A stretch of DNA of 64,000 nucleotides. Origin: Myxococcota bacterium (lineage in GTDB: Bacteria; Myxococcota_A; UBA796; UBA9615; JAKLKC01). Location of the stretch: positions 1 to 64,000 of the forward strand of contig JAKLKC010000011.1 of the NCBI GenBank assembly GCA_023150875.1, read 5' to 3'. Positions within the stretch are counted from its first letter, which is position 1. Every line of letters starts with the position of its first letter. The translations under genes and the position numbers were made by a program. Shown here one piece after another: positions 14,943 through 24,520 of this stretch. The notes under the pieces were generated by a model, which worked only from the letters and a program-made list of their open reading frames with translations, was not told the DNA's origin and ran no database searches.

Positions 14943-15458
14943 GTGGTCACGGATCGTGCGCGGGCAAGGCGGCAGGCGCTCCTGGGGATCGTGAGGGAGG
15001 GGACGTCCCGGACCCAGGACGACCTCGCCGAGCGCCTCCGCCTCGCCGGCTTCGCCGCGACCCAGTCGGCCATCAGCCGCGACATCCGCGCCCTCGGGAT
15101 CGCCAAGGCCGAGGGGCGCTACGTCCTCCCCGGCGCGCCCGGTCCCGAGGCCCCCTCCCCGGGCGCTCCCCAGGTCCAGTCCCCCGACCTGGCCGACGTC
15201 GCGCGCTACTGCCGCGACGCGGTACCGGCGGGACCCCACCTGCTGGTGGTCCACACCCTGCCCGCCATGGCCCAGGCGGTGGCCTCGGCCCTGGACGCCG
15301 CCGGGTTGCCGGGGGTCCTGGGGACGGTGTCCGGGGACGACACCCTGTTCGTCGCGGTGTCGGACCCCGAGCGCCAGCGCTCCCTCCTCGCGCTCCTGGA
15401 GAGCGCCTTCCATCCCGCCGGTTCGCGGGGATCCCGCCCGGCCTCGTCCGCTCGTTGA
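14943..15458 (+). CDS. argR: Arginine repressor
   Basis: ArgR binds operator boxes when arginine is bound and represses arginine synthesis. The 171-residue protein has an N-terminal winged helix (about 5-70, with TQDDLAERLRLAGFAATQ and ISRDIRALGI) and a C-terminal oligomerisation domain from about 90. That domain holds the arginine-binding GTVSGDDTLFVAV segment near residue 146. The GTG at 14943 was chosen because GGAG lies five bases upstream; the open frame extends further 5' without a better start. Its stop overlaps a possible TTG of argG. Its position at the head of the operon suggests autoregulation. Confidence 0.88.
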   Translation: MVTDRARARRQALLGIVREGTSRTQDDLAERLRLAGFAATQSAISRDIRALGIAKAEGRYVLPGAPGPEAPSPGAPQVQSPDLADVARYCRDAVPAGPHLLVVHTLPAMAQAVASALDAAGLPGVLGTVSGDDTLFVAVSDPERQRSLLALLESAFHPAGSRGSRPASSAR

Positions 15459-15514
15459 ACGCCCCCGGAACCCTTCCCGCGCCTCTCCGTCCCGGGGCGG
15501 CGCCAGGACCGCCC

Positions 15515-16738
15515 ATGCCGCCCGACTCCCCCGCCGCACCCCGCCGCGTCGTGCTCGCCTTCTCGGGGGGCCTCGACACCTCCTGGTGCGTGCTCCACCT
15601 CATCGGGCTCGGGGCCGAGGTCGTCACCGTCACCGTGGACACGGGCGGCCTGGACGAGGCGGAGCGGCGGAGGATCGGGGAGCGCGCCGGGGAGCTCGGG
15701 GCCTCCCGGCACGTGCTGGTGGACGCCCGGGACCGGGTGTACGAGGACCACGTCTCCTGGCTGATCCGCGCCAACGCCCGGCGGGGCGGCGTCTACCCCC
15801 TCTGCGTCGGCGCCGAGCGGGTCGTCCAGGCCCGGACCGTCGCCCGGGTGGCCCGGGAGGTCTGCGCCGACGCCGTGGCCCACGGCTCCACCGGCGCGGG
15901 GAACGACCAGATCCGCTTCGACGTCGCCCTGCGGGCCCTCCTCCCGGACCTGCCGGTGCTCACCCCCATCCGCGACCTGCAGGTCACCCGCGAGAGGTCC
16001 GCAGGGGAGCTCCGGGCCGCGGGGTTCCCGGTGCGCGCCGAGACCCGGGACTATTCCGTCAACCGCGGCCTCTGGGGCACCACCATCGGGGGCAGGGAGA
16101 CCCACGATCCCTGGGCGTCCCCGCCGCCCTCCGCCTGGCCGGACACCGTCGACCCCGACGGGGCTCCCCCCGAGGGGGTCGAGGTCGTCCTGGGGTTCCG
16201 GGCCGGCCTCCCCGTGTCCTTGGGCGGCGAGCCCCTGGCGGGGGTGCCCCTGGTGGAGAGGCTCAACCACCTGGGGGCGGCCCACGGGATCGGGAGGGGC
16301 ATCCACCTGGGGGACACGATCCTCGGCATCAAGGGGAGGATCGCCTTCGAGGCCCCGGCGGCGGCGGTGCTCATCGACGCCCACCGAGAGCTGGAGAAGC
16401 TGGTGCTCACCCGGCTCCAGGCCCACCACAAGGACCAGCTCGCCGCGGTGTACGGGATGCTGCTCCACGAGGGACAGTACTTCGACCCGGTCATGCGGGA
16501 CATCGAGGCCTTCCTCGCCTCGTCCCAGCGGGTGGTGGAGGGCGACGCGCGGGTGCTGCTGCGGAGGGGGCGGGTGGAGGTCCGCGGCGTGCGCAGCCCA
16601 TACTCCCTGATGGACGAGGCCGTGGGCCGCTACGGGGAGGACAGCCGCCTGTGGAGCGGCGAGGACGCCCGGGGCTTCGCGCGGCTCTACGGGCTCCAGG
16701 GAGTGCTCGCCGAGCGGGCGCGGAGGGCGCGGCCTTGA
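15515..16738 (+). CDS. argG: Argininosuccinate synthase
   Basis: ArgG joins citrulline and aspartate with ATP. From the chosen ATG the protein has 407 residues, with the PP-loop SGGLDTS at about residues 16-22. Conserved substrate segments follow: AHGSTGAGNDQIRFD (near 124) and ETRDYSVNRGLWGTTIGG (near 178). The segment NHLGAAHGIGRG (near 250) precedes the C-terminal oligomerisation helix. I chose ATG at 15515, which has AGGA six bases upstream. A TTG at 15455, overlapping the argR stop, would add 20 proline-rich residues. The C-terminal stop overlaps the next gene's TTG start. Confidence 0.9.
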   Translation: MPPDSPAAPRRVVLAFSGGLDTSWCVLHLIGLGAEVVTVTVDTGGLDEAERRRIGERAGELGASRHVLVDARDRVYEDHVSWLIRANARRGGVYPLCVGAERVVQARTVARVAREVCADAVAHGSTGAGNDQIRFDVALRALLPDLPVLTPIRDLQVTRERSAGELRAAGFPVRAETRDYSVNRGLWGTTIGGRETHDPWASPPPSAWPDTVDPDGAPPEGVEVVLGFRAGLPVSLGGEPLAGVPLVERLNHLGAAHGIGRGIHLGDTILGIKGRIAFEAPAAAVLIDAHRELEKLVLTRLQAHHKDQLAAVYGMLLHEGQYFDPVMRDIEAFLASSQRVVEGDARVLLRRGRVEVRGVRSPYSLMDEAVGRYGEDSRLWSGEDARGFARLYGLQGVLAERARRARP

Positions 16739-17787
16739 GGAAGCTCCGCCTGAACAAGATCGCCTCGGCCACCCGCAACGCCCGCCTGGCCCGGGAGGTG
16801 GTGGTGGCTCCGGACGTCGTCGCCCGGGAGGGCTCGGTCATCGCCGTGCGGGCCCTGGAGAGGAAGAGCGTCTACAACGAGCTGGAGGACTGCAACGGGC
16901 GCATGGCGGCGGTGAACGAGGGGGACGTGATCGCGGGGGTCCTGGGGGAGAGGCGGGCGCTGCGGGGTTACTCGGGCGTGGTGCCGGAGCGGGTCGCCCC
17001 CGGGGACGTGCTGCACCTGCTCAACCTGGGCGGGGTGATCGGGCGCTGCACCAGCAGCGTCGTCGAGGTGGGCCCCCCGGGGCGGGTCGAAGTGCTGGGG
17101 CAGGTCCTGTCGTTCCCCTACATCGGGGATCGCCGCGGCCTCCCCGCGAGCATCCTGGACCAGGCGCTGCCCGCCGCGGAGGTCCTCGACGTCTCGGCGC
17201 CGGTGGTCTACGTGTCGGGGACCTGCATGAACTCGGGCAAGACCTTCGCCGCCTGCGAGGTGATCCGCGGCCTGGCCCGGCGGGGACGGCGCGTGGCCGC
17301 GGCGAAGCTCACGGGCGTGTCGCTGCTCCGGGACACCCTGAAGATGGAGGACGTCGGGGCCTTCCGCGCCCTGAACTTCAACGACGCCGGCGCGGTCTCC
17401 ACCCGCCCCGACCGGATCCTGCCCATCGCCCGGGGCCTGCTCAACGCCCTGGACCGCGACCGGCCGGACTGCGTCGTCGTGGAGCTGGGGGACGGGCTGC
17501 TGGGAGAGTACGGGGTGATGGAGATCCTGAAGGATCCCGCGCTGTTGCAGGCGGGGCGGGCCCACGTCGTGTGCGCCAACGACCAGGTGGCGGCGTGGGG
17601 GGCGTGGCGCCTCTTCGTCGAGGAGATCGGGGCCCGGCCCACGGTGATGTCGGGGCCCGCCACCGACAACGACGTCGGCAGGCGTTTCTGCGAGGAGAGG
17701 CTGGGGCTCCCGGCGGTCAACGCCCGCACCGACGGGGAGCGGCTGGCCGCCGTGGTGGACGATGCCCTCTTCGGAGGTGGGGCGTGA
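16735..17787 (+). CDS. P-loop protein of unknown function in the arginine operon
   Basis: I do not recognise this 350-residue protein with certainty. The N-terminal half (about 1-150) is beta-rich with GDVIAGVLGERRALRGYSG. The second half is a P-loop NTPase fold with the Walker A-like GTCMNSGKT at 162-170, a possible DxG-type segment (CVVVELGDGLLGEYG) near 245-259, and a VCANDQVAAWG segment near 280. The layout recalls DUF1611/DgcN-type P-loop proteins, one of which is reported as a D-glutamate N-acetyltransferase, but the match is by general pattern only. The gene is wedged between argG and argC with a 4-base overlap on each side, so it is co-translated with the pathway. An acyltransferase or regulatory role is inference. 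Confidence 0.75.
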   Translation: MRKLRLNKIASATRNARLAREVVVAPDVVAREGSVIAVRALERKSVYNELEDCNGRMAAVNEGDVIAGVLGERRALRGYSGVVPERVAPGDVLHLLNLGGVIGRCTSSVVEVGPPGRVEVLGQVLSFPYIGDRRGLPASILDQALPAAEVLDVSAPVVYVSGTCMNSGKTFAACEVIRGLARRGRRVAAAKLTGVSLLRDTLKMEDVGAFRALNFNDAGAVSTRPDRILPIARGLLNALDRDRPDCVVVELGDGLLGEYGVMEILKDPALLQAGRAHVVCANDQVAAWGAWRLFVEEIGARPTVMSGPATDNDVGRRFCEERLGLPAVNARTDGERLAAVVDDALFGGGA

Positions 17788-18845
17788 GCGCGCCGGAGCG
17801 GCTCCGGGCCGCGGTGTGCGGCGCCAGCGGCTACGTGGGCGGCGAGCTGGTCCGCTGGCTGCTGCGCCACCCCCGGGTAGACCTGACGCGGGTCACCGCC
17901 GGCACCCGCGCCGGCATGCGTCTCGACGCCGTCTTCCCGCAGATGGAGGGACACACGGACCTGGTGCTGGGGGGCGAGTCCCCCGGGGCCCTCTGCCGCG
18001 AGGTGGACGTGCTGTTCCTGGCCCTCCCCCACGGAGAGGCGGCCCGGGCGGTGGCGGAGCTCGGCCCCGACGCCCCGGGCCTCCCCCGGATCGTGGACCT
18101 GGGCGGCGATCACCGGATCCCCGACGCGGGGGTGTGGGCCCGGGCCTACGGCCACCCCCACCCCGCGCCCCACCTGGTCGCTGGCTTCGTGTATGGACTC
18201 CCCGAGGCGAACCGCGACCTGCTCCCGGGAGCCCGCCGCGTCGCCAACCCCGGGTGCTTCGCCACGGCCCTGGCCCTCGCCCTGCTGCCCCTGGCGCGGG
18301 GGGGCGGGCTGGACGGACCCGTCCCGGCCTTCGGCCTCACCGGCTCGTCGGGGAGCGGGATCATGCCCAGCGAGACGACACATCATCCCGCCCGCGCCGG
18401 AAACGTGCGCGTGTACAACGCCCTGTCGCATCGGCACGTCCCCGAGGTGGAGGGGATCCTGCGACAGGTCGGGGAGGGTCGCGTCGGGGACGCGTTCCGC
18501 CTGGACTTCGTCCCCGCCTCCGCCCCGCTGGTTCGGGGGATCCTCGTCACGGTCTTCCCCCGTGGCGCGGCCGGCGGGATCGACGACGTGGCCCGGCTGT
18601 ATCGAGACACGTATTCGTCCGCTCCCTTCGTGCGCGTGGTGGACCGCGCGCCCGGGCTGAGCTCGGTGCGGGGCACGAACCGGGCCGAGGTGGCCATCCA
18701 CACCGGCGAGGGAGGGGCCCTGGCCGTCTCCTGCGCCATCGACAACCTCGCCCGGGGGGCCGCCACCCAGGCGATCGCCAACCTGAACCTCTCCATGGGC
18801 TGGCCCGAGTCCCTCGGCATCGACGCCATCGCGCTGGTCCCCTGA
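17784..18845 (+). CDS. argC: N-acyl-gamma-glutamyl-phosphate reductase
   Basis: ArgC reduces the acylglutamyl phosphate to the semialdehyde with NADPH. The 353-residue protein has the nucleotide-binding GASGYVG at 13-19 and the catalytic cysteine C158 in VANPGCFAT. A substrate-binding GSSGSG is near residue 190, and the histidine-bearing HRHVPEV segment is near 213. The GTG start at 17784 follows GGAGGTGG and overlaps the previous stop as GTGA. The acyl group may be acetyl or succinyl; ArgC sequence alone does not tell. Confidence 0.92.
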   Translation: MSAPERLRAAVCGASGYVGGELVRWLLRHPRVDLTRVTAGTRAGMRLDAVFPQMEGHTDLVLGGESPGALCREVDVLFLALPHGEAARAVAELGPDAPGLPRIVDLGGDHRIPDAGVWARAYGHPHPAPHLVAGFVYGLPEANRDLLPGARRVANPGCFATALALALLPLARGGGLDGPVPAFGLTGSSGSGIMPSETTHHPARAGNVRVYNALSHRHVPEVEGILRQVGEGRVGDAFRLDFVPASAPLVRGILVTVFPRGAAGGIDDVARLYRDTYSSAPFVRVVDRAPGLSSVRGTNRAEVAIHTGEGGALAVSCAIDNLARGAATQAIANLNLSMGWPESLGIDAIALVP

Positions 18846-18853
18846 GCCCCCCG

Positions 18854-20050
18854 ATGGACACCCCGATCCCCCTCGTCTCCGATCCCGAGGTCCTGGCCGA
18901 TCCCGTCGCCGCCGAGGACCGCTACCAGCTCCCCACGTACGCCCACCTGCCCCTGGTCCTGGTCCGGGGCGAGGGATCCCGGGTCTGGGACGTGGCGGGC
19001 CGCGCCTACTGGGACTTCTACGGAGGGCACGCCGTCGCCCTGCTGGGCCACGGGCACCCCCGGCTGGTGGAGGCCATCGCCACCCAGGCCCGGGCCCTCA
19101 CCTTCTACTCGAACCAGGTCTACTGCCCGGTGCGTGCCGCGGCGGCGAAGGCCATCGTGTCGTTCGCCCCCTCCCACCTGCGCCGGGTGTTCTTCTGCAA
19201 CTCCGGCGCGGAGGCCAACGAGGTCGCCCTGAAGCTGGCCCGGGGCGCCACCGGGCGGACCCTGGTGGTGGCGATGGACGGCGGCTTCCACGGCCGGACC
19301 GCCGGGGCCCTGTCGGTCACCGGGATCCCCCGCTACCGGGACGCCTTCCCCCCCGGCCTCGGGCACGCCCGGTTCGTGCCCTTCGGTGACCTGGACGCCG
19401 CCGCCTCCGCCATCGACGGCGACGTGGCGGCGGTGATCCTGGAGCCGATCCAGTCCATGGCGGGCGTGGTGGCCGCCCCACCCGCCTTCTACCGCGGGCT
19501 GCGGGAGCTGTGCGACCGGGCCGGGGCGAAGCTGGTCTTCGACGAGGTCCAGACCGGATGGGGCCGCCTGGGAGCGCCCTTCGCGGCGGACCTCTTCGGC
19601 GTCGCCCCCGACCTGATCACCTCCGCGAAGGGGGTGGCGGGGGGCTTCCCCATGGGCGTCGTGCTGGTGGACGATGCCACCGCCGCGACGGTGAAGCGGG
19701 GAGACCAGGGCACCACCTTCGGCGGCGGTCCGATGGCGTGCGCCGCTGCCCTGGCGGTGCAGGAGGCCATCGCCGGCGAGGGGCTGGTCGCCCGGGCCCG
19801 GGAGGTGGGGCTGAGGGCGCGGGAGGTCCTCGGGGGCGTGGAGGGGGTCTCCGAGGTGCGGGGCGCGGGCTGCCTGCTGGGCCTCGCCCTGGATCGGCCC
19901 GCCGCCCCTGTGGCCGCCGCCCTGCGGGAGCGGGGCTTCCTGCTGGGCGGATCGGACGATCCCCGGGTGCTGAGGCTGATCCCCCCCCTCACCCTCCCCT
20001 TCGAGGCCCTGGACTCCCTGCGGGACGCCCTGGCCGAGGCGCTGGCATGA
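18854..20050 (+). CDS. argD: N-acylornithine aminotransferase
   Basis: ArgD is a class III PLP aminotransferase that converts the acylated glutamate semialdehyde to acylornithine. The 398-residue protein has NSGAEANEVALKLAR at 116-130. The PLP-binding aspartate is D230 in LVFDEVQTGWGR, and the Schiff-base lysine is K259 in SAKGVAGGFPMG. The ATG is at 18854, eight bases after the argC stop. Its stop overlaps the ATG of the transcarbamylase gene. Family members often also act on diaminopimelate precursors, so a dual role is possible. Confidence 0.9.
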   Translation: MDTPIPLVSDPEVLADPVAAEDRYQLPTYAHLPLVLVRGEGSRVWDVAGRAYWDFYGGHAVALLGHGHPRLVEAIATQARALTFYSNQVYCPVRAAAAKAIVSFAPSHLRRVFFCNSGAEANEVALKLARGATGRTLVVAMDGGFHGRTAGALSVTGIPRYRDAFPPGLGHARFVPFGDLDAAASAIDGDVAAVILEPIQSMAGVVAAPPAFYRGLRELCDRAGAKLVFDEVQTGWGRLGAPFAADLFGVAPDLITSAKGVAGGFPMGVVLVDDATAATVKRGDQGTTFGGGPMACAAALAVQEAIAGEGLVARAREVGLRAREVLGGVEGVSEVRGAGCLLGLALDRPAAPVAAALRERGFLLGGSDDPRVLRLIPPLTLPFEALDSLRDALAEALA

Positions 20051-21144
20051 GCGAGCCGACGGATCCTTCGAACTCCCTGGACGCCGCCGTGGGGCGGGTG
20101 CGGGCCGCCTGGGGCGGCGGATCCCCCCCGGGTTCCCTGCTGGACGGCTGGGAGCCCGGCGCGGCGGGGATCGACGAGGTCCTCCGCCTGGCCCGCCTGT
20201 ACCGGACCCACCGCCGCGAGATCGCCCGCGCCCGACCCCTGGCGGGCCGGGTGGTCGCGGGGATCTTCTTCGACCCCTCCCTCCGGACCCGCGCCTCCAT
20301 GGAGGCCGCGTGCGCCCGCCTGGGCGCCCACTTCCTGTACCTGCGCCCCGGGGAAGGCTCGTGGAGCCTGGAGCTCCGGGACGGCGTCCGCATGGATGGG
20401 GCCGAGCCGGAACACGTCCGGGAGGCGGCCCGGGTGCTCTCCCGCTACGCGGACCTCCTGGCGATCCGGGCCTTCCCCGGGGGCCGGGACCTGGTGGAGG
20501 ACCGGCGGGAGCCGGCGATCCGCGCCTTCGCGGCCCACGCCACCGTCCCCGTGCTGAGCCTGGAGTCCGCCCTCGCCCACCCCTGCCAGGGGCTCGCCGA
20601 CCTGATGGCCTTCGACCAGGCCGCCGGGGGACCTCCCCGGGGGGCGCCGATCTGTCTCACCTGGGCGCCACACCCGAGGTCCCTGCCCCAGGCGGTCCCC
20701 CTGAGCGTGGTGCGAATGGCGGCGGTGGCGGGCGCAGATCTGCGGATCGCCTGCCCCGAGGGGTGGGACCTGGACGAGGAGGTGATGGCGAGGGCCCGGG
20801 AGGTCTCGGCCTCCCGGGGTGGGACGATCTCGGTGTACCGGGACCCCGACGAGGCGGTCCGGGGCGCCATCGCCGTCTACGCCAAGGGGTGGGGCCCGTC
20901 CCGGCCCACCGAGGGGATCGGCGAGCACTACGGCGCCCTTCCGGTGCTGGACCGGTGGCGGGTCACCGCCCGGCGCATGGGCCTGACGGCGGGCGGGCGG
21001 GGCGCCTTCCTCCACTGCCTTCCGGTGCGCCGGAACGTCATCGTCGACGACGAGGTGCTGGACGGCCCCTGGTCCCGGGTCACCGAGCAGGCCGCCAACC
21101 GGGAGTTCGTGCAGGCCGCCCTCCTGCTGGCGTGGCTCCTATAG
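20047..21144 (+). CDS. argF': N-acylornithine transcarbamylase, succinylornithine-type
   Basis: This enzyme carbamoylates an acylated ornithine rather than free ornithine. The 365-residue protein has the carbamoyl-phosphate loop DPSLRTRAS at 76-84, HPCQ at 178-181 and HCLPVRRN at 323-330. The segment TWAPHPRSLPQAVP (205-218) is the proline-rich loop I recall from Bacteroides succinylornithine transcarbamylase. The residue after MDGAE is P121. In the published pair, a proline here goes with succinylornithine and a glutamate with acetylornithine. The K302-type lysine of Xanthomonas AOTCase is absent. The ATG at 20047 overlaps the argD stop. Succinyl specificity is inferred; acetylornithine remains possible. 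Confidence 0.82.
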   Translation: MSEPTDPSNSLDAAVGRVRAAWGGGSPPGSLLDGWEPGAAGIDEVLRLARLYRTHRREIARARPLAGRVVAGIFFDPSLRTRASMEAACARLGAHFLYLRPGEGSWSLELRDGVRMDGAEPEHVREAARVLSRYADLLAIRAFPGGRDLVEDRREPAIRAFAAHATVPVLSLESALAHPCQGLADLMAFDQAAGGPPRGAPICLTWAPHPRSLPQAVPLSVVRMAAVAGADLRIACPEGWDLDEEVMARAREVSASRGGTISVYRDPDEAVRGAIAVYAKGWGPSRPTEGIGEHYGALPVLDRWRVTARRMGLTAGGRGAFLHCLPVRRNVIVDDEVLDGPWSRVTEQAANREFVQAALLLAWLL

Positions 21145-21198: not shown

Positions 21199-22119
21199 GT
21201 GGAACGAGTCCTCCCCCTGCTCACCGCCGTCCCCTACATCCGCCTCTTCAAGGGGGAGACGTTCGTCGTCAAGATCAGCGGGGCGCTGCTGCTGGACGCC
21301 GACGCGCTGGCGGCCTTCGCCGACGACGTGGCGCTGCTCCACCACCTGGGGATCCGGGTCGCGGTGGTCCACGGGGGCGGCCCCCAGGTGGACGCCCTCT
21401 CGACGCGCCTCGGGCTCCAGCGGGAGGTCCACGCCGGTCGCCGGGTCACCGACGCCGAGACCCTGGACCTGGCGAAGATGGTCTTCCGGGGGCGGCTCAA
21501 CTCCGACGTCGTCGGCGCGCTCCGGGCCCGGGGGCTCTCTCCGGTGGGGCTCTCGGGGGCGGACGGGGGCCTCGTCACCGCCGTCCGCCGCCCTCCGGTC
21601 CCCGTCCAGGACGCCGAGTCCGGCGAGGCGCGCCTGGTGGACTACGGGCACGTCGGGGACGTGACCCGGGTGGACCCCCGCCTGGCGCGCCTGCTCCTGG
21701 ACGGCGGGCACGTCCCGGTGCTCTGCTCCCTGGCGGCCACCGAGCGGGGCGACGTGCTCAACGTCAACGCCGACACCGTCGCCGCCGAGGTCGCCGCGTC
21801 CCTGTCGGCGGCCAAGCTGGTCATGCTCACCCCGGCGGCGGGCCTGCTCGGGGACGTGACCGACGCCACCACCCTCTACAGCTACCTGGACATGCGAGAG
21901 GTCGACGACCTCGTCGCCCGGGGCACCGTCCGGGGCGGGATGCTGCCCAAGGTCGCCGCCTGCGGGCTGGCGCTGCGGCGCGGCGTGCCCCGGGTGCACC
22001 TCATCGACGGCTTCCGGCCCCACTCCCTGCTGCTGGAGGTCTTCACCAACGAGGGCTGCGGCACGCTGGTGGTGCGGGACAAGGCCGAGGAGCCCCCGAT
22101 CCCCGCGGGCGTGCAGTGA
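21199..22119 (+). CDS. argB: N-acylglutamate kinase
   Basis: ArgB phosphorylates the acylglutamate side chain. The 306-residue amino-acid-kinase protein has the nucleotide site VVKISGALL near residue 23 and the GGGP loop in VVHGGGPQVDAL near 58. The acylglutamate-binding RLNSDVVGAL is near 98, and VNADTVAAEVAASL is near 191. The end of the protein (RVHLIDGFRPHSLLLEVF) resembles the version fused to or paired with acyltransferases. The GTG at 21199 has GAGGAG 10 bases upstream. No acetyltransferase domain is attached, so the acyl donor step must be elsewhere. Confidence 0.88.
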   Translation: MERVLPLLTAVPYIRLFKGETFVVKISGALLLDADALAAFADDVALLHHLGIRVAVVHGGGPQVDALSTRLGLQREVHAGRRVTDAETLDLAKMVFRGRLNSDVVGALRARGLSPVGLSGADGGLVTAVRRPPVPVQDAESGEARLVDYGHVGDVTRVDPRLARLLLDGGHVPVLCSLAATERGDVLNVNADTVAAEVAASLSAAKLVMLTPAAGLLGDVTDATTLYSYLDMREVDDLVARGTVRGGMLPKVAACGLALRRGVPRVHLIDGFRPHSLLLEVFTNEGCGTLVVRDKAEEPPIPAGVQ

Positions 22120-23186
22120 CGGTGCTGGAGCTGCTGGAGTCCCTGGTCGCGACGCCCTCCCTCAGCGGCGAGGAGGCCGCGGTGGCGAGGCGCCTGTGGG
22201 GGGCCCTCGCCGGCCGGGGCCTGCCCGCCGAGGTCGTCCAGGAGCGCAACGTCCTGGTCCGCCTGCGGGGCCGCTCGCCAGGTCCCACCCTGCTGTTCAA
22301 CTCCCACCTCGACACCGTCCCCCCGGTGTCCGGCTGGACCCGGGATCCCTTCCGCCCCACCCGGGAGGACGGGCGCCTCTACGGACTCGGGGCCAACGAC
22401 GCCAAGGGCTGCGTCGCCGCCATGGCCGGCGCCGTCGCAGCGGTGGCGGCCGCGGGGGGCCCCCTCCGCGGGACCCTGCTGTTCGCGGCGACCTGTAGCG
22501 AGGAGGCGGGCCCCTCGGGGCTGGAGGCGCTGCTCCCCTCCCTCGGACCCATCGACGACGCCGTCGTGGGGGAGCCTACGGGGCTCCAGATCTGCGTCGC
22601 CCAGAACGGGCTGCTGATCCTGGAGCTGACCGCCGCGGGCCGCGCCGGGCACGCCGCCCGACCCCAGCTCGCGGACAACGCCCTGTACCACGCCGCCCGG
22701 GACGTGCTCGCCCTGGAGGCCCTGGCCGGACGCCTGGACCGCGACCACCCCGCCGGGGACGGGACGAGCCTGGCGGTGACCGTGCTCCAGGGGGGGGACC
22801 GCCACAACGTGATCCCCGGGGAGTGCCGGATCGTGGTGGACCTGCGCACCACCTCGGCCCACACCCCCGAGTACCTCGTCGCCCGGGTACGGGGCGAGGT
22901 CCGCTCCCTCGTCCGGGTGCGGAGCGACCGGCTGCGTGCCCGGGCCACGCCCCCCGGGGCGCTGGTCCTCGCCGCCGCCCGCGCCGCCCTCCCGGACGCC
23001 CCCCTGGTCTCCTCCCCCACCCTGTCCGACTGGGCGCACCTGGAGGGGGTGGCGGCGGTGAAGCTGGGACCGGGCCTCTCCGAGGTGAGCCACACCGCCG
23101 ACGAGTGGGTGGAGATCGGCGCCGTGGAGAAGGCGGCGGAGGTGTACCGGCGGATCGCCGCCGAGCTCCTGGGGAGTCCGAAGTGA
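22116..23186 (+). CDS. argE: M20-family deacylase, probable N-acylcitrulline deacylase
   Basis: In this pathway the M20 zinc hydrolase is expected to remove the acyl group from acylcitrulline, giving citrulline for ArgG. The 356-residue protein has the metal ligands in NSHLDTVPP near residue 70, GANDAKG near 93, the catalytic glutamate pair in CSEEAGP near 128, and GEPT near 152. The lid domain is present. The GTG start at 22116 overlaps the argB stop. By sequence alone LysK or DapE relatives cannot be fully excluded, but the position between argB and argH favours arginine synthesis. Confidence 0.85.
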   Translation: MTVLELLESLVATPSLSGEEAAVARRLWGALAGRGLPAEVVQERNVLVRLRGRSPGPTLLFNSHLDTVPPVSGWTRDPFRPTREDGRLYGLGANDAKGCVAAMAGAVAAVAAAGGPLRGTLLFAATCSEEAGPSGLEALLPSLGPIDDAVVGEPTGLQICVAQNGLLILELTAAGRAGHAARPQLADNALYHAARDVLALEALAGRLDRDHPAGDGTSLAVTVLQGGDRHNVIPGECRIVVDLRTTSAHTPEYLVARVRGEVRSLVRVRSDRLRARATPPGALVLAAARAALPDAPLVSSPTLSDWAHLEGVAAVKLGPGLSEVSHTADEWVEIGAVEKAAEVYRRIAAELLGSPK

Positions 23187-24520
23187 GCCACGGCAAGCTC
23201 TGGAACGAGGCGGCACCCGCCGACCCCGACCTCGAGGCGTTCACCGTCGGCGAGGACCCGGTCCTGGACGCGCGGCTCGCCCGGTGGGACGCCATCGGCT
23301 CCCTCGCCCACGCCCGGGTGCTCCAGGCGGCGGGACTGCTGGGCGCGGGGGACGTCGCGGACCTTTCCCGCGGCCTCCGGGAGGTGGTGGCCCTCGCCGA
23401 CGGCCCCGGCTTCCCCATCCGGCGCGACCAGGAGGACGTCCACACCGCCGTCGAGCAGTTCCTCGCCGCCCGCGTCGGGGACGCCGCGCTCCGCCTGCAC
23501 GCCGGCCGGTCCCGGAACGACCAGGTCCTGACGGACCTGCGGCTGTGGCTGAAGTCGGAGCTGCTGGCCGCCCACGGGGAGTGGCTCCGGGCCGCCGCCT
23601 CCCTGATCGGCCTCGCCCGGACCCACTCCCACGTCGAGCTGCCGGGCTACACCCACCTCCAGCGGGCGATGCCCTCCTCGGGCGCCCTCTGGGCGGGGGG
23701 CTTCGCCGGGGCTCTCCTGGACCTCATGCCCTTGTGGGACGCCGCCTTTCTCCTGGCGGACCGATGCCCCTTGGGGTCGGCGGCGGGCTACGGCGCCCCC
23801 CTTCCCCTGGACCGCGCCCTGGCGGCGCGGCTGCTGGGCTTCGCCCGGGTGGAGGCCCCGGTGACCGCCTGCCAGGTGGGCCGGGGGATGGCGGAGTCCG
23901 CCGCCGTCCACGCCCTGGCCGAGGCGGCGGAGGTGGGCGCGAAGCTGGCTTGGGACGTCGTCCTCTATGCCTCCTCGGAGTTCGCCCTGGTACGCCTCCC
24001 CGATGCGTTCACCACCGGCTCCTCGATCATGCCCCAGAAGCGGAACCCCGACGTCGCGGAGCTGTTGCGGGGGCGGGCGGCGGCGGTTCGGGCGGCGGCG
24101 CGGGAGATCGAGGACGTGCGGGGCAAGCTGCCCTCGGGCTACCACCGGGACCTCCAGCTCACCAAGCCGCCCCTGATGAGGGGGATCGACTCGGGCCGCC
24201 AGGCGCTGCGGGTGGCGGAGCGCCTGGCCGCGGGGGTCCGCCTGGACGAGGCGGCCTGTGCCCGGGCCATGGACGCGCCCCTGTACGCCACCGCGGAGGC
24301 GGTGCGCCGGGCCGAGGGGGGACTGCCGTTCCGGGACGCCTACCGCGCCGTGTCCTCCGAGGTCCGTTCCGGCACGTTCAACCCCAGCGACCTGCGGGGC
24401 GCCCCCGACGCCGGGGCGGACCTGGATGGACTCGGCGCGCGGCTGGATCTCCTCGTCCGAGAAGGAGAATCGCGTCGGACGGCCTTCGGCGCCGCGTGCT
24501 CGGCGCTGCTGGAGGGCTGA
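23183..24520 (+). CDS. argH: Argininosuccinate lyase
   Basis: ArgH splits argininosuccinate into arginine and fumarate, the final step. The 445-residue protein begins with the family pattern KLWNEAA, contains HAGRSRNDQVLTDLRLW near residue 108 and the fumarase-superfamily signature SSIMPQKRNPD near residue 282. It ends with an intact C-terminal helix region. The GTG start at 23183 overlaps the argE stop as GTGA. It is the last gene of the operon. The 186 bases after it contain a perfect 14-bp palindrome (CGCCACCGGTGGCG, 24593-24606), possibly part of transcription ending. Confidence 0.92.
   Translation: MSHGKLWNEAAPADPDLEAFTVGEDPVLDARLARWDAIGSLAHARVLQAAGLLGAGDVADLSRGLREVVALADGPGFPIRRDQEDVHTAVEQFLAARVGDAALRLHAGRSRNDQVLTDLRLWLKSELLAAHGEWLRAAASLIGLARTHSHVELPGYTHLQRAMPSSGALWAGGFAGALLDLMPLWDAAFLLADRCPLGSAAGYGAPLPLDRALAARLLGFARVEAPVTACQVGRGMAESAAVHALAEAAEVGAKLAWDVVLYASSEFALVRLPDAFTTGSSIMPQKRNPDVAELLRGRAAAVRAAAREIEDVRGKLPSGYHRDLQLTKPPLMRGIDSGRQALRVAERLAAGVRLDEAACARAMDAPLYATAEAVRRAEGGLPFRDAYRAVSSEVRSGTFNPSDLRGAPDAGADLDGLGARLDLLVREGESRRTAFGAACSALLEG

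Follow-up and report, generated by a model that had tools for sequence, protein, structure and literature searches.

A 64,000-nucleotide stretch of DNA from an apparent myxococcotal genome (contig JAKLKC010000011.1, positions 1 to 64,000; the whole stretch is referred to here as the window) carries an arginine operon that raises two linked questions, namely which form of ornithine its transcarbamylase would carbamoylate, and which gene product would perform the first step of the pathway.

The arginine operon

The genes are arranged in the order argR-argG-X-argC-argD-OTC-argB-argE-argH, all on one strand, and most of the junctions overlap by 4 bp, which suggests translational coupling. The arginine repressor gene argR (14943..15458, +) matches PF02863 and PF01316 over their cut-offs and its exact start is uncertain; the argininosuccinate synthase gene argG (15455..16738, +; TIGR00032, 305 bits, over cut-off) may begin either with a TTG at 15455, which would overlap the argR stop by 4 bp, or with an ATG at 15515. 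Gene X (16735..17787, +), which overlaps both argG and argC by 4 bp, encodes a 350-residue P-loop protein that is designated a putative N-acyl(succinyl)-glutamate synthase from its synteny and predicted fold. It is followed by argC (17784..18845, +; TIGR01850, 302 bits, over cut-off), encoding N-acyl-gamma-glutamyl-phosphate reductase, and by argD (18854..20050, +), encoding an acylornithine aminotransferase of family PF00202 whose best models are acetylornithine transaminases, with scores under their cut-offs.

The transcarbamylase ORF (20047..21144, +) starts with ATG, encodes 365 amino acids and is a real gene inside the operon; we refer to it as argF', for a SOTCase-like, succinyl-type acylornithine transcarbamylase, on the strength of residues P121, P214 and I332, NCBIfam scores and a tree. 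Downstream lie argB (21199..22119, +; TIGR00761, 208 bits, over cut-off), encoding a single-domain N-acylglutamate kinase of 306 residues without an acetyltransferase domain, argE (22116..23186, +), encoding an M20-family deacylase (PF01546 and PF07687; TIGR01892 at 158.9 bits, below its cut-off of 297.7), and argH (23183..24520, +), encoding argininosuccinate lyase (PF00206 over cut-off; TIGR00838 at 254 bits, just under 279.5). The operon is thus predicted to encode every step of arginine synthesis but the first, that of N-acylglutamate synthase. The initial annotation had taken the location of argE after argB as evidence for the order acylornithine, acylcitrulline, citrulline; the order itself stands, because of the enzyme class of the transcarbamylase together with the co-operonic M20 deacylase, and the position of argE does not serve as evidence for it.

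The transcarbamylase and its deciding residues

The three sequence signatures that had been read as those of a succinyl-type enzyme lie where they were said to: MDGAEP corresponds to residues 116-121, with proline at position 121, the loop TWAPHPRSLPQAVP to residues 205-218 and HCLPVRRNVIV to residues 323-333. The claimed likeness to the Bacteroides succinylornithine transcarbamylase (SOTCase) also holds, the aligned stretches MTWAPHPRPLPQAVP and HCLPVRRNMIV of that enzyme being nearly identical to those of the window protein, and the claimed departure from the Xanthomonas acetylornithine transcarbamylase (AOTCase) is seen in an alignment to 3kzc and its mutants, in which P121 faces Glu92 and I332 faces Lys302. 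A third published deciding site, Xanthomonas Asn185, is P214 in the window protein. According to a review of these enzymes (PMC4581275), SOTCases have A, S, P, V or Q at site 92, P at 185 and V, I or E at 302 in the Xanthomonas numbering, and AOTCases have Glu92, Asn185 and Lys302; P121, P214 and I332 agree with the SOTCase rule at all three sites. An AOTCase assignment was set aside on these residues, the Glu92, Asn185 and Lys302 sites being occupied by P, P and I.

The proline-rich loop of the knotted group, known here from sequence, is present and aligns to the Bacteroides loop. By alignment the substrate-binding residues of the crystal structures are kept as well (H209, R211, R328, E173, K280 and W106), the first three corresponding to the Bacteroides succinyl anchors H176, R178 and R278. 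R211 was considered as a diagnostic residue and dropped, K or R being found in both the acetyl- and the succinyl-type groups. Glutamate, asparagine and lysine occupy the deciding columns in all 16 acetyl-type enzymes from the same phylum, and glutamate is found at site 92 in none of the 71 transcarbamylases from gene-X loci, so the pattern is not a matter of chance. The sites do vary among the X-associated enzymes, with lysine at 302 in four of the 71 and glycine at 185 in three.

Family placement points the same way. The best PDB matches are to the Xanthomonas enzyme 3kzc and its mutants (E-values about 1e-64), followed by the Bacteroides enzyme, and the NCBIfam model for N-acetylornithine carbamoyltransferase scores 340 bits against a cut-off of 288. 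A quick maximum-likelihood tree with 93 rows, whose outgroup branches are long and join at points that are not exactly sure, unites the acetyl-type enzymes and that of Xanthomonas in one clade (SH-aLRT 100) and places the window protein within a supported cluster of nine enzymes associated with X. A classical ornithine transcarbamylase acting on free ornithine would share with it the fold-level kinship expressed by the Pfam family OTCace, but this reading is very improbable given the proline-rich loop and the ArgF models, which are far under their cut-offs at no more than 160 bits (TIGR00658, 143 against 281; PRK00779, 160 against 306). Grouping with classical ArgF, which the initial annotation had named as one outcome that would overturn its assignment, is not seen, since ArgI, PyrB and YgeW of E. 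coli lie apart from it. A classical ArgF/ArgI identity was ruled out by the NCBIfam scores and the tree. On sequence grounds, then, the window protein is a member of the knotted acetyl/succinyl-ornithine transcarbamylase group rather than a classical ArgF, and the deciding residues, NCBIfam scores and tree together support the succinyl-type assignment.

The two characterized relatives differ from it in separate ways. The Bacteroides fragilis SOTCase (PDB 1js1, 2fg6 and 2g7m) has the same deciding-site classes, the near-identical loop and HCLPVRRN-IV, although it comes from another phylum in which the first step is attributed to the GNAT BT3761/ArgA2 rather than, as is probable here, to X. The Xanthomonas campestris AOTCase belongs to the same knotted group and is the best overall PDB match, but has E92/N185/K302 where the window protein has P/P/I. 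SOTCase is already known from Bacteroides, and the transcarbamylase alone adds another member, here in an apparent myxococcotal genome.

The window's own genome has a second knotted transcarbamylase (contig C178, 4317-5306), which is 50 % identical to the first and lies outside any arginine cluster; it has the mixed deciding residues E, P and E, and HPLP where the others have HCLP.

Gene X and the first step

The new part of this analysis is gene X, which stands in the place left by the absent first enzyme and had been overlooked in the initial annotation. A search of the window's own genome recovered no ArgJ and no PF04768 NAT domain (the control set was silent, and the same model matches 36 genomes of the phylum), and the ArgA model TIGR01890 matched just ArgB and a weak GNAT, the latter scoring 26.7 bits where the cut-off is 202.85. 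This GNAT, as read from its sequence, is presumably ElaA/YjcF-like. There are seven GNATs in the genome, none of them inside the operon. By these models no known version of N-acylglutamate synthase is recognised in the genome, and X itself has no match to PF01960, TIGR01890 or PF04768.

X contains the Walker A motif GTCMNSGKT. No Pfam or NCBIfam family matches it above cut-off; Pfam DUF1611_C reaches 15.1 bits, under its gathering score of 25, and tblastn joins X to an annotated DUF1611 protein with 27.7 % identity over 87 %. A scan of the sequence collection confirmed at least 577 relatives, and in the best 80 of these, on which neighbourhoods were judged, arginine genes adjoin X in every case, mostly as argG-X-argC, an order also found in most of the loci fetched from the phylum. 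These best 80 span at least eight bacterial phyla as well as archaea. By record titles and tree labels, many of which are those of metagenome bins and some possibly wrong (two read Klebsiella pneumoniae), the carriers include Gemmatimonadota, Myxococcota, Acidobacteriota, Elusimicrobiota, Planctomycetota, Pseudomonadota, Armatimonadota, Eisenbacteria, Bdellovibrionales and several archaea; none was confirmed in viral contigs. Geothrix and further Holophagaceae also carry X in their arginine clusters; members of this family other than Acidiparvus were reported in a survey to be without N-acetylglutamate synthase (PMC11561045). We found no paper naming gene X in the open-access literature, which omits most subscription journals. 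ArgA3 (PMC9026213) was considered as a counterpart of X and rejected, being described as a deacetylase homologue.

Several of these loci have features of their own. At one Bdellovibrionales locus X is accompanied by argC, argD, argB and an OTC of the classical rather than the knotted type, so that the link between X and the succinyl-type enzyme is not a strict one. In a Gemmatimonadales record (L170) the X sequence is divided between two reading frames, and at three loci (L130, L135 and L136) X adjoins arginine genes but the fetched piece shows no transcarbamylase. On a Priestia megaterium plasmid (NZ_CP085446.1, 88630-89691) the gene for a hypothetical protein resembling X is clustered with genes for an ornithine carbamoyltransferase, two ATP-grasp proteins, TPP enzymes, an M20 peptidase and a member of the PEP mutase family; the whole looks like a phosphonate peptide natural-product cluster.

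The distribution of X within the phylum is close to the complement of that of the known first enzymes. Of 282 genomes, 54 have X, 140 have ArgJ and 36 have the NAT domain, and ArgJ or NAT occurs in just one of the 54 X genomes (G246, which has X and ArgJ) compared with 160 of the 228 without X (Fisher p 3e-22, uncorrected for phylogeny). A knotted transcarbamylase accompanies X in 52 of the 54, compared with 30 of the 228 (p 1e-32, likewise uncorrected). The X count leaves out, by a cut of our own, seven weak matches (E-values 5e-4 to 1e-30), all in ArgJ genomes, which are taken for relatives with another function. Genomes with and without X are both found within each of families f12, f15, f16, f27 and f45, so that the exclusion is replicated. 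A C-terminal extension of ArgB of about 150-165 residues is present in 12 of 14 scored non-X clusters and absent in X genomes. The NAT domain was confirmed in 14 genomes of the 16 acetyl-type enzymes with E, N and K; these enzymes form one clade, however, and their pairing with NAT may thus reflect a single event.

At four loci (L065, L066, L070 and L071, two of them on short contigs) there is a succinyl-type transcarbamylase and no X was found in the genome; ORF listings of the clusters of L065 and L071 showed no GNAT inside them.

These data bear on the possibility that, with a transcarbamylase of the succinyl type, X is a P-loop protein with an accessory or regulatory role, the acyl-glutamate being made by an unrecognised GNAT encoded elsewhere, as BT3761/ArgA2 probably does in Bacteroides. 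Such an arrangement has that precedent, and the seven GNATs of the genome and the few succinyl-type genomes without a detected X would fit it, yet we regard it as unlikely, since none of the seven lies in the operon and only one matches the ArgA model, far below its cut-off, while X nearly excludes ArgJ and NAT in the 282 genomes and adjoins arginine genes across many phyla.

An AlphaFold2 model of X (65 sequences, pLDDT 96.1) was compared with known structures. The top VIA matches of its P-loop half are the DUF1611 proteins 2g0t (Z 17.5) and 2obn (Z 16.6), and DgcN (7xrj), an N-acetyltransferase by its PDB title, follows at Z 15.5. Because papers place DgcN in a D-glutamate pathway, we take D-glutamate to be its substrate. 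X differs from these proteins in falling under the Pfam DUF1611 cut-off, in its location in arginine operons and in its beta-rich N-terminal domain, which, modelled alone, gave no convincing match in the PDB (best Z 3.4); this does not make the fold new. Dethiobiotin synthetase and CTP synthase match the P-loop half at Z of about 16, close to the DUF1611 and DgcN scores, so an ATP-dependent reaction by X is also possible. The modelled fold fits acyl transfer without proving it.

That the one structural neighbour with a named acyltransferase activity is an N-acetyltransferase, and that the deciding sites vary across X loci, would suit a route in which X makes acetyl- or another acyl-glutamate and the transcarbamylase uses acetyl-ornithine or another acyl form despite its succinyl-type residues. 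We think this improbable: according to published mutagenesis quoted in GapMind (PMC7311316), any of S, P, A and V at this deciding site brings about a preference for the succinyl substrate, the window protein has P, and E, N and K are retained in every acetyl-type genome of the phylum.

A proposed acyl-linked route to arginine

We consider it likely that arginine is made here by a linear route through N-acylated, most probably N-succinylated, intermediates, with X as the first enzyme; X is probably an acyl-glutamate synthase that feeds the succinyl-type transcarbamylase. X would transfer an acyl group to L-glutamate, succinyl from succinyl-CoA being the leading guess, and ArgB, ArgC and ArgD would convert acyl-glutamate to acyl-ornithine. 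The SOTCase-like enzyme would carbamoylate this to acyl-citrulline, the M20 deacylase would release citrulline, and ArgG and ArgH would complete the last steps to arginine. Knotted-group membership, succinyl-type residues, operon structure, the synteny of X and its near exclusion with known first enzymes are sequence-based, and we infer what the enzymes do, that the acyl group is succinyl and its donor CoA, and the specificity of the deacylase; the choice of succinyl follows from the transcarbamylase residues, not from X itself.

A succinyl route has been described in the Bacteroidetes, with BT3761/ArgA2 as its probable first enzyme (PMC7311316, PMC9026213), and in Xanthomonas the first step is performed by a bifunctional synthase-kinase (PMC1865377). 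We lean towards the view that X is an evolutionarily separate N-succinyl- or N-acylglutamate synthase, with a P-loop rather than a GNAT or ArgJ fold, that serves as first enzyme in some archaea as well as many bacterial lineages, groups annotated as being without one among them. N-Acylglutamate synthase catalyses the first, committed step on the way to arginine and is a recurrent gap in genome annotation, as in the Holophagaceae (PMC11561045). If this view of X is correct, the activity would have a distinct evolutionary origin, the succinyl route would reach well past the Bacteroidetes, and a single gene family would account for arginine prototrophy in many lineages, including the Myxococcota, Gemmatimonadota, Acidobacteriota, Planctomycetota and Elusimicrobiota and some archaea.
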